Of a stretch of 64,000 nt of DNA, positions 9,239 to 12,046 are shown in pieces. Within the stretch, counting starts at the first letter, position 1. Each line of letters starts with the position of its first letter. Source of the DNA: Caldanaerobius polysaccharolyticus DSM 13641. Lineage in GTDB: Bacteria; Bacillota; Thermoanaerobacteria; Thermoanaerobacterales; Caldanaerobiaceae. The notes beneath the pieces were generated by a model that searched no databases, was not told the DNA's origin, and saw nothing but the letters and a program-made list of their open reading frames with translations. Where the stretch lies: NCBI RefSeq assembly GCF_000427425.1, contig NZ_KE386494.1, positions 252,476 to 316,475 on the forward strand. The letters are read 5' to 3'. Position numbers and translations under genes: made by a program.

Positions 9239-11338
9239 TTATCTTTGTACTTCTTCCGTCGTAAATGCCTCTATAATATCACTTTCCTTGATGTCGTTAA
9301 ATTTTTCCAGCATCAAGCCGCACTCGTAACCCGCAGCCACTTCTCTCACATCATCTTTAAACCTCTTTAACGATATAATCTTGCCTTCATAAACCACCGC
9401 ACCGTCTCTTACCAGCCTCACAGACGCAGTCCTAGTAATCTTACCGTCCAAGACATAGCATCCTGCTATAGTCCCCAGTCCCGATACTTTAAACAACTGC
9501 CTCACTTCAGCTCTTCCCAAATATACTTCACGGTACTCGGGTTCCAGCAAGCCCTTTAAAGCCTTTTCTATATCGTCTATTACGTCATATATGATCCTGT
9601 ACAGCCTTATATCTACTTTTTCTCTTTCAGCCAGATCCCTAGCCTTAGAATCAGGTCTCACATTGAAGCCTATTATAATGGCATTGGACGCAGAAGCCAG
9701 CATTACATCCGTCTCTGTTATAACTCCAACGCCTTCGTGCAGAATGTTAACCCTAAGCTCATCGCTGCTCAGCTTTAAAATAGCCTGCTTTAACGCTTCC
9801 ACAGATCCCTGGACATCAGCTTTAACTATGACGTTCAGTTCTTTTATGTTGCCCTGCTGCATCTGGTCAAACAGGTCTTCCAGCGTCACCTTCTGCGCCG
9901 CGGACCTTGTCTCTTTCATCTTTTCTTTTCTTGCCTCTGCCAATTCCCTGGCTTTTTTCTCGTCTTCTACTACCACCAACAAATCCCCTGCTTCCGGTAC
10001 CTCGGAAAGCCCCAATACCTCTACAGGCGTAGAAGGACCTGCCTGCTTTAGCTTTCTGCCCTTGTCATCAAACAAGGCCCGAACTTTGCCGTAAGCGGTT
10101 CCCACTACAATAGCATCCCCTACTCTTAGCGTGCCGCTCTGTACTATAACCGTCGCCACAGGGCCACGGCCTTTATCCAAAAGCGCCTCTATAACGGTAC
10201 CTCTGGCCTGCTTGTCAGGGTTAGCTTTTAATTCCTGCATTTCGGCTACCAACAGTATCATTTCCAGCAGGTCGTTTATGCCTTGTTTTTTCGTAGCCGA
10301 AACCGGTATGCAAATGGTGTCTCCTCCCCACTCTTCTGGTATTAACCCATATTCCGTAAGTTCCTGTTTTACCCTGTCAGGATTGGCTTCGGCCTTATCT
10401 ATTTTATTTATAGCGACAATTATAGGGACTTTAGCTGCTTTTGCGTGGTTGATCGCCTCGACGGTTTGAGGCATTACCCCATCGTCAGCAGCAACTACCA
10501 AAACCGCTATATCCGTCACCTGTGCTCCTCTTGACCTCATAGAGGTAAAAGCCTCATGCCCAGGCGTATCGAGAAAGACTATCTTTTTGCCATTGAGCTC
10601 TACTGTAGAAGCGCCGATATGCTGCGTAATGCCTCCTACTTCCCGAGCTGTCACATTGGTGTTTCTTATAGCGTCCAGTAACGAGGTTTTACCGTGATCC
10701 ACGTGACCCATAACCGTAACAATAGGCGGCCTAGGTTTCAGGCTTTGAGGATCGTCTTTTTCTTCATCCAAGACCTCACCGCTGTCGGCCTCTTTCTTTT
10801 CTACTGTTATACCGTATTTATCCGCGAGCTTTTGCACCACTTCGTAAGGAAGCACATCGTTTATCTTTAGCATGTATTTCATAAAAAGGAGATCTCTAAC
10901 CACTTCAGAAGGATTTTTCTTTATGAGCTCAGCAAACTCCCTTACGGTCATGCCTTCAGCAAACTCAATTTTATCCACCGGTGCGTTCTGCTGTTGCTGG
11001 ACAGCGGTGCTTTCCATGGCCGCTTTTTTATTTTTCTTCTTCTTAACACTTTTCCTCTGCTTAAACCTGTCTTCCTCATTAAATTCGGCCTCATATTTAT
11101 CAAAATCGTCCTTATCCTCGCTATCATCCCGCGCCTCTAAAGATATAGTCTCCTTTTTCTTTGTGGCTTCATCGCTCTTTGTCTCTTTAACCAATTCCAC
11201 TATCATATCCACCTCCTCATCTTCCAATGTACTCATGTGATTTTTCACATGGACACCCAAATCCAGCAACTTGGATATTAAATCCTTGCTGGATATGTTG
11301 AGCTCTTTAGCTAACGTGTACACCCGCATTTTTGACAT
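9239..11338 (-). CDS. infB: Translation initiation factor IF-2
   Basis: GTPase that brings fMet-tRNA to the 30S subunit. 699 residues. An N-terminal IF2-N helical module (residues 1-50) is followed by a charged, low-complexity linker with a KKKKNKK tract (about 50-120) and a second IF2-N module. The G domain starts at GHVDHGKT (211-218), then DTPGHEAFT (about 257) and NKIDKA. The C-terminal domains II-IV are complete. The linker is short compared with enteric IF-2. Start ATG 11338 matches the family N-terminus ([14 protein letters not shown]), but its only strong ribosome site lies 63 bases upstream behind hairpins. Confidence 0.97.
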
Positions 11339-11434
11339 GGCATTACCTGGTTCAAAAGCTTAACTGCATTGCAGTTAACGGCCTTCCCATGACCAGGCTT
11401 TCCTCCTTTCGATAAATTTGCCCTCTATGAGGGC
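11339..11434 (-). promoter_or_regulatory. Structured infB leader with displaced Shine-Dalgarno and 12-codon ORF
   Basis: Minus-strand order: hairpin GCCCTC/GAGGGC (11420-11434), strong ribosome site GAAAGGAGG (11402-11409), then stem CCTGGT/ACCAGG (11392-11397 with 11346-11351) enclosing an 8-pair hairpin (11371-11378 with 11360-11367), then ATG of infB at 11338. Folding the stem leaves about 11 bases between ribosome site and start. Alternatively, the site serves a mini-ORF at 11352-11390 ([12 protein letters not shown]) that stops 13 bases before infB. Confidence 0.5.
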
Positions 11435-11466
11435 GTACAAGGCAGGAAGACCTCCCCTTCCCCTAC

Positions 11467-11787
11467 CTATCTGCTGTCTGCTGCGCCGCTTATCGCATCC
11501 GCAAACCCTTTATCCACAACGCATACAACAGATCTCGGACTTTTGCCCAAAAAGTGCCCCAGTTCATCTTTCCGCCCGCTCACGATTACAGGGACATTGG
11601 ATCTGTGACATAAGTCCATAATTTGCCGCACCGTGTTATCCGCTGCGTCTTCCGCAATTATCACTAATTTTGCCTTTTTTTTCGTTATAGCCTGTCTTGT
11701 TAAAAAAATTCCCGATTTAATCTTGCCCGCGCGCTGGGCAAGCCCTAACAATGAGTAAAACTTTCTATTGTCCCTCAATTTTATCAT
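11467..11787 (-). CDS. ylxQ: L7Ae-family ribosomal protein YlxQ
   Basis: About 106 residues of the L7Ae/L30e/S12e fold: LLGLAQRAGKIKSG, then KAKLVIIAEDAADNT and a PVIVSGRKDELGHFLGKS segment. Family members bind kink-turn RNA; YlxQ is a non-essential ribosome-associated protein in Bacillus. ATG 11787 follows GAGGAATAT and overlaps ylxR by 23 bases. The nusA-ylxR-ylxQ-infB order is classic for Firmicutes and supports the call. Confidence 0.9.
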   Translation of the reverse strand: MIKLRDNRKFYSLLGLAQRAGKIKSGIFLTRQAITKKKAKLVIIAEDAADNTVRQIMDLCHRSNVPVIVSGRKDELGHFLGKSPRSVVCVVDKGFADAISGAADSR

Positions 11788-12046
11788 ATTCCTCTCTTAT
11801 CCTCACAAGGTCTTGCTCGGAAATCTGCGTGTTTAAAGCCTTTTCCAGCTTTTCTTTAATCAACGTCTTTTTAAGACAATCTTCATTGGGACAAAAATAA
11901 GCCCCGCGACCAGACACCTTTCCTGTGGTATCCAGCTGTATTTCACCCGTCTTGGCGTTTTTAACTATCCTTATAAGTTCTCTCTTGGGCTTTGATTGCA
12001 TGCACCCCAGGCACTTTCTCATAGGCACTTTTTTCACCGCAGCCAT
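11765..12046 (-). CDS. ylxR: YlxR family RNA-binding protein (DUF448)
   Basis: 93 residues. It has a CxxC-type start ([16 protein letters not shown]) and the conserved [12 protein letters not shown] stretch at about residue 45, both diagnostic of the YlxR fold. YlxR has been linked to RNase P and to transcription control in Firmicutes. It sits 14 bases after nusA and overlaps ylxQ. ATG 12046 has a weak GTGGTGATG ribosome site. Confidence 0.92.

Follow-up and report, generated by a model that had tools for sequence, protein, structure and literature searches.

The 64,000-nucleotide stretch of Caldanaerobius polysaccharolyticus DSM 13641 analysed here (the window; contig NZ_KE386494.1, positions 252,476 to 316,475; genome G000 in our set) carries infB, the gene of translation initiation factor IF-2, on its minus strand (9239-11338, TIGR00487 E 2.5e-266, ATG at 11338-11336), where the upstream reading frame and the leader parts described below also lie. 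IF-2 gave one match in this genome, the next listed being a shorter GTPase match (3.7e-13). Upstream, an open reading frame (ORF) of 106 aa (11467-11787), which we take to be probably an L7Ae protein of the YlxQ/RplGA type, ends at 11467, and the 128-nt gap between this end and the infB start holds a structured leader. We consider it likely that this leader is the solo right end of a tnpB-carrying IS607 transposon, whose new Shine-Dalgarno sequence (SD) would be bridged to the start codon by a fold, such that the gene hit stays translated.

The right end, 107 nt long including the GG at each edge (11346-11452), was recognised from like units at other genes of this genome, of a sibling species (G001, IF-2 85% identical) and of G010, a member of another family, and from the right ends of full transposons in genome G011. 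It begins inside GGGGAGG (11451-11457), which corresponds to ACGGAGGTGATGTCATG in the sibling and represents the original infB SD, now cut off from its start codon. From there, the leader comprises the 5' strand of helix A GGTCTTCC (11452-11445), a hairpin GCCCTC-ATA-GAGGGC (11434-11420) that varies in length and sequence among copies, the element-borne replacement SD AAAGGAGG (11409-11402), the 5' strand of helix B CCTGGT (11397-11392), recognised by RNA folding and right-end alignment, the 3' strand of helix A GGAAGGCC (11387-11380), an inner hairpin TTAACTGC-AAT-GCAGTTAA (11378-11360), found by sequence and RNA folding, and ACCAGG (11351-11346), which is both the 3' strand of helix B and the terminal motif of full transposons. 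The right flank TAATGCC (11345-11339) aligns with TGATGTC of the sibling and corresponds to the old spacer between the infB SD and its start. A preliminary description of this leader, made from the letters alone, had noted a strong SD 63 nt before the ATG, a CCTGGT/ACCAGG stem enclosing the inner hairpin, about 11 bases remaining once the stem is folded and a 12-codon mini-ORF ending 13 nt before infB; all of these are present and correct to the base, with 4 + 7 = 11 nt outside the stem and the mini-ORF at 11390-11352. It had overlooked helix A, which crosses the CCTGGT/ACCAGG stem to give a pseudoknot, the start of the unit at 11452 within the old SD, and the copies elsewhere in this and other genomes. 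The stem belongs to both the minimum free energy (MFE) and the centroid structure of the leader, and the fold of the 137-nt leader reached z -2.39 (1/200 shuffles as good). Scans for an intrinsic terminator and an internal promoter gave none in the infB leader. A self-splicing or hepatitis delta virus-like ribozyme was discarded in view of the shortness of the unit and the lack of a match to any family of this kind. Rfam held no family matching the leader or its copies; an sR24 match at 11839-11890 lay far below the gathering score, and a dauA match in one copy (L196; 18.3 bits versus 45, E 2.2) was taken as chance.

The sibling genome retains what appears to be the uninterrupted site. Its infB has no leader and closely follows the end of the corresponding upstream frame (junction AACGGAGGTGATGTCATGTC), and a normal SD, GGAGG, lies exactly at the insertion point. 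Empty sites were found in all four gene pairs compared between the siblings: infB (empty GGAGG/TGATGTCATG, occupied GGGGAGG/element/TAATGCCATG), alaS (empty CAGGAGGAACGACATG, occupied TAAGG/element/AGCGATATG), aroC (empty GGAGG/GTTGCAATTG, occupied AAGG/element/GTTGTAGGTG) and remA (empty GGAGG/TTGGTTTATG, occupied element/TTGGGTTATG). They continue without any target duplication. The unit was also absent from infB in the relatives of the order whose infB junction was read. In G000 a single match was obtained for alaS and for aroC, as for IF-2.

Searching the two sibling genomes with the leader revealed further copies before alaS in G000 and before remA, aroC and a P-II-like gene, presumably glnB, in G001, together with partial or diverged copies, and one copy in G010 is nearly identical to that before remA in G001. 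The non-diverged copies have in common a GG-TCTTCC-type start, a hairpin, GAAAGGAGG, CCTGGT and the end GAACCAGG shortly before the start codon. No tnpB match was obtained in G000 or G001 at E 1e-30 and no IS607 tnpA match in G000 at E 1e-20; the window copy holds the right end only, without tnpA, tnpB or left end, and is a derivative, not an autonomous member of IS607. Nevertheless the SD and the helices are kept in the solo copies of both siblings, with paired changes in helix A of the aroC (GGTCTTTC/GAAAGGCC) and glnB (GGCCTTCC/GGGAGGTC) copies, which argues for use by the host gene. The left edge of the four small copies examined (infB, alaS, aroC, glnB) sits at a GG in the left flank, and this would fit a deletion from GG to GG made by the recombinase as well as a mobile form that is not autonomous. 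Two kinds of shorter likeness were also seen: a half copy in G000 (L037, around 1501-1525; C2:1029368) consists of the CCCGAAAGGG hairpin and AAAGGAGGAA, immediately followed by an ATG, and lacks the 3' half of the pseudoknot, and TAAATTT...GAAAGGAGGACAA stands before corresponding genes in both siblings (L062 and L065, around 1501), either as an old remnant or as a chance likeness.

A covariance model built from six copies and run on 37 genomes of the class gave matches in seven. Those in G009, G013 and G021 scored about 24 bits, and the two that were read look like chance. Genome G011 holds nine copies, and upstream of every one of them lie a RuvC-type ORF and some 300 nt of conserved RNA sequence. 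For seven of the nine, both limits of an element of about 2.7 kb could be set; its order is GGAGG flank, TRMGYAACAGCTACC, a serine recombinase gene (with a MerR-type domain; L103 encodes 214 aa), the gene of a TnpB of about 565 aa, the RNA region and finally TTTTTTGAACCAGG. The recombinase is an IS607 transposase (NF033518, E 2.7e-57, 193 bits over a cut-off of 110; PF00239 and PF00376 also matched). The TnpB ORF matched guided_TnpB NF040570 weakly (E 6.2e-15, 55 bits under a cut-off of 100) and TIGR01765 with 38.9 under a cut-off of 47.25. Thus the parent elements show the hallmarks of IS607: a serine recombinase TnpA with a MerR-like N-terminal domain, GG at both edges, insertion at GG without duplication, and an accessory tnpB. 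TnpB relatives occurred in 16 of 199 genomes at E 1e-30 and at 79 loci of named genomes, the hosts including Carboxydocella thermautotrophica, Thermovorax subterraneus, Fervidicola ferrireducens, Desulfofundulus, Desulfovirgula, Desulfotomaculum and metagenome-assembled genomes of other groups; parent elements were found in Thermoanaerobacterales, Carboxydocella, Desulfofundulus, Thermovorax and others. A DNA pattern of the right end hit 52 of 398 genomes of the phylum, many by chance, and inspection by eye left about 23 with a real end. An alignment of 12 TnpBs (A3) shows no variation of the acidic residues at RuvC positions one and two, and the third region reads H-x-A-A-A, where an aspartate is usual; the nuclease activity of the clade is uncertain. 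The genome of C. thermautotrophica (CP028514.1, L169-L208) has many copies in which tnpB and the two ends are retained, and since the left end stands close before tnpB, most seem to be without tnpA. In L140 (3187-3700), the right-end region is broken by an N run and the RNA is partly repeated, through an assembly fault or a tandem right end.

The flanks of these elements point to the SD as the target. Among 36 readable left ends, 34 have a left flank ending in GGAGG (7/7 in G011, 27/29 elsewhere), after four rows had been dropped by eye as false (L156, the second L166 row, L179, L198) and two that stood at contig starts without a flank. The two exceptions, GGTGG and GAAGG, share their left end with other copies of their genome, and therefore GGAGG belongs to the target and not to the element. 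When the left and right flanks were joined, 27 of 29 had an anti-SD energy at least as favourable as -10 kcal/mol. On the other side we collected 88 distinct right ends, 86 of them with at least 150 nt downstream, and asked for an ORF with a minimum length of 50 aa, or 30 aa where it ran off the edge: a start codon lies 4-13 nt after the right end in 75/86, mostly at 6-10 nt. As a control in the window, with a fixed 50 aa, 25 of 117 GGAGG sites and 1205 of 7092 GG sites passed. The genes hit, as confirmed by NCBIfam, include those of IF-2, AlaS, AroC, RemA, ValS, PurA, Era, Ddl, trigger factor and Pth. Judged from these flanks, the elements of this clade have the direction of the gene hit and lie immediately behind the GG of its SD, between SD and start codon. 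The infB leader is a transposon end and not an infB-specific device.

The right end in turn carries its own SD. GGAG occurs at most 16 nt 5' of helix B in 86/88 right ends, a motif that the collecting pattern did not require, and its context changes (AAAGGAGGAA, TGGAGGTG, AAAGGAGCG, AAAGGAGGCG) while the core stays. In the 75 copies with a start codon, this SD lies 61-90 nt from the start in linear sequence (median 75) and 3-7 nt from helix B, and as a matter of sequence layout the distance falls to 9-19 nt (median 14) when helix B and its contents are removed. All 75 therefore have the layout of a putative split ribosome-binding site, a far strong SD with a helix in between. Median anti-SD energies (n=76) were -11.6 kcal/mol at the element's SD versus -4.3 in the 20 nt before the start. 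Helix A, which would form the pseudoknot with helix B, is backed by compensatory changes (G-C/A-U, U-A/C-G/G-U and C-G/U-A): seven pairs in 35 modules gave 245/245 standard pairs in 15 strand combinations, and none of 5000 reshufflings was as good. The modules represent 79 of the 88 right ends, namely those where a helix was picked up by the script; for part of these its first pick, a neighbouring GGCCGAGG duplex, was corrected by anchor. Pairs 1-4 are partly fixed by the anchors G[GA][TC]C and GG[CT]C, so that pairs 5-7 are the free test, and pairs were counted on script-cut strands, since the MAFFT alignment of the 35 right ends (A4) misplaces helix A between its 7- and 8-bp types. The helix was not recognised in the other nine, at least four of which (L147, L157, L204, L205) have a GGGTGGC-type 3' strand and a plausible partner. 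Helix B is almost invariant, and one diverged copy of G001, CCTGGTC/GATCGGG, still pairs.

These observations suggest the following course of events. The transposon would land just after the GG of the target SD and disconnect it from the start codon; its right end, which presumably forms the 3' part of the TnpB guide RNA as well, would supply a new SD with the pseudoknot immediately behind it and end 4-13 nt before the start. Closure of helix B would bring the new SD to about 9-19 nt from the start, where ribosomes may initiate as on genes 38 and 25 of phage T4. The single-copy infB of the window would be kept expressed by the bridged SD, and after loss of the transposon genes the end would stay fixed as a structural ribosome-binding site. 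As the split, structure-bridged SD would replace that of the target, insertion might be tolerated even before single-copy infB and alaS. Bridging, and with it continued translation of the gene hit, is what we infer from the layout. Of the two proposals in the preliminary description, the structure-bridged start is thus the better supported, its layout recurring in 75 copies before unrelated genes.

Several observations weigh against this account. The start-codon test is loose (17% of GG sites pass), and 11 of 86 right ends fail it, of which some look explicable: L121 looks to us like prfB with its frameshift, L036 may, we presume, precede a CTG start, and L115 has its start at 24 nt, with an SD of its own. 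The usual optimum of SD spacing is shorter than the folded median of 14. The significance of the leader fold is moderate, both at 137 nt and at 101 nt (z -1.41 for the latter, 21/200 shuffles as good). Covariation, the check named in the preliminary description, is strong for helix A and nearly absent for the CCTGGT/ACCAGG stem; as this helix B barely varies, covariation speaks neither for nor against it, and its sequence may perhaps be fixed by a role for the recombinase or in the guide RNA. In several copies, nested MFE folding joins the 5' strand of helix A to the SD instead, and the CAGG at the end of the element is itself a weak SD. The retention of SD and helices in solo copies may also reflect recent arrival from different donors.

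The weak terminal SD leads to an alternative that we regard as unlikely, namely that translation of the gene hit uses only this CAGG and that the strong GGAGG serves the guide RNA. In most copies the distance from CAGG to the start is roughly that of an SD, the median anti-SD energy in the last 20 nt is -4.3, and in full elements the presumed guide RNA includes the GGAG; however, CAGG is the 3' strand of helix B and hence paired in the folded leader, GGAG is kept in 86/88 right ends despite changing neighbours, and it is retained in the solo copies of genomes without a tnpB match. A shade less probable still is a two-state switch, in which the 5' strand of helix A pairs either with its 3' strand, leaving the SD free, or with the SD, hiding it, so that TnpB or temperature might regulate the gene hit. 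In three solo copies (L033 1499-1618, L061 1499-1620, L035 1466-1580) the 5' strand is complementary both to the copy's own SD and to the 3' strand of helix A, and the MFE structure hides the SD. Such predicted folds, obtained for the remA, aroC and alaS copies, make an on/off switch possible, but nested folding cannot weigh a pseudoknot, copies of the G011 and L196 types fold differently, and a signal shared by such unrelated genes is hard to see.

The preliminary description had also proposed a leader peptide coupling IF-2 synthesis to translation. Translation of the mini-ORF from the strong SD followed by reinitiation at infB would be highly improbable: besides the 12 codons in the window, several copies have 18-codon versions ending at the equivalent TGA, and 14/86 in all end at this terminal TGA, but in 49/86 a start codon is missing from the stretch 4-16 nt behind the SD, while 19 frames stop earlier and four continue beyond the end. 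The peptide sequence is not kept, and most copies have no conserved mini-ORF, which thus seems incidental. An autoregulatory leader specific to IF-2 is hardly credible. Its position before infB is all that speaks for it, and it fails because the unit is missing from infB in G001, as in the relatives of the order that were read, and present before alaS, aroC, remA, valS, purA, era and others.

On balance we lean, with less assurance than for the infB leader itself, towards a wider reading in which IS607-TnpB transposons of at least two guide-RNA classes are specialised SD parasites: recombinase and nuclease would both read the SD (TnpB by way of a target motif such as AGGAG), the element would land between SD and start, and the 3' end of the guide RNA would also fold into a ribosome-binding site from which the gene goes on being translated. 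Such an element could live before essential genes, where loss or damage would cost the host, and its solo ends would remain as permanent structured 5' untranslated regions, some of which would thereby be accounted for as transposon ends. The AGGAG target motif of IS607 nucleases would be explained as the ribosome-binding site, and a mobile element would be at hand whose guide RNA also serves translation of the host gene. Nature would thus have a means of separating SD and start codon by kilobases while the gene stays active, and the dozens of copies, many before essential genes, would offer a large natural set of bridged sites for the study of long-range initiation.

The second guide-RNA class in this comparison is RAGATH-18. 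As described in the relevant parts of PMC11061315 (Cell Res 2024), RAGATH-18 elements also combine an IS607 TnpA with TnpB and a pseudoknotted guide RNA downstream of tnpB, and the target motif of their TnpBs is AGGAG (18/22 strains) or GAGGG, AGGAG being an SD core; their TnpB has about 390 aa, unlike the roughly 560 aa of the present clade. The words 'Shine', 'ribosom' and 'start codon' do not occur in the main text of that paper. With RAGATH-18 (RF03064), a scan of two right ends up to E 10 was negative, as were those of the other copies scanned, and this RNA is present in 16 of 398 genomes of the phylum. A start codon lies 3-14 nt beyond the end in 21 of 31 distinct RAGATH-18 right ends (30 loci of the phylum search and L302), and AAGGAA-like motifs occur within the RNA of most elements read (L288-L305, L306-L335). 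The genes behind these ends include what we take to be look-alikes of mutS and rimO.

The closest parallel for the proposed initiation is T4 genes 38 and 25, in which, according to the pertinent section of PMC3014915, folding of the RNA between SD and AUG reduces a spacing that is too long, from 22 to 5 nt and from 27 to 11 nt, respectively. In contrast, the present case, known from sequence, spans 61-90 nt, consists of a pseudoknotted transposon end and stands before dozens of unrelated genes. IS607 and its relatives share the serine recombinase, the exchange at GG and the lack of target duplication; the passages of PMC6188088 (eLife 2018) on target choice give insertion at GG, with (G)GG preferred, and report no further rule, whereas the target here is the SD of a gene. 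A search of titles and abstracts, with subscription papers and some preprints outside its coverage, found no link of IS607 or TnpB to the Shine-Dalgarno sequence. In IStrons and other expression-sparing insertions, an RNA device in the element's own transcript limits the harm to the host gene. IStrons do so by splicing themselves out of the RNA, whereas here nothing would be removed and the initiation site would be rebuilt.
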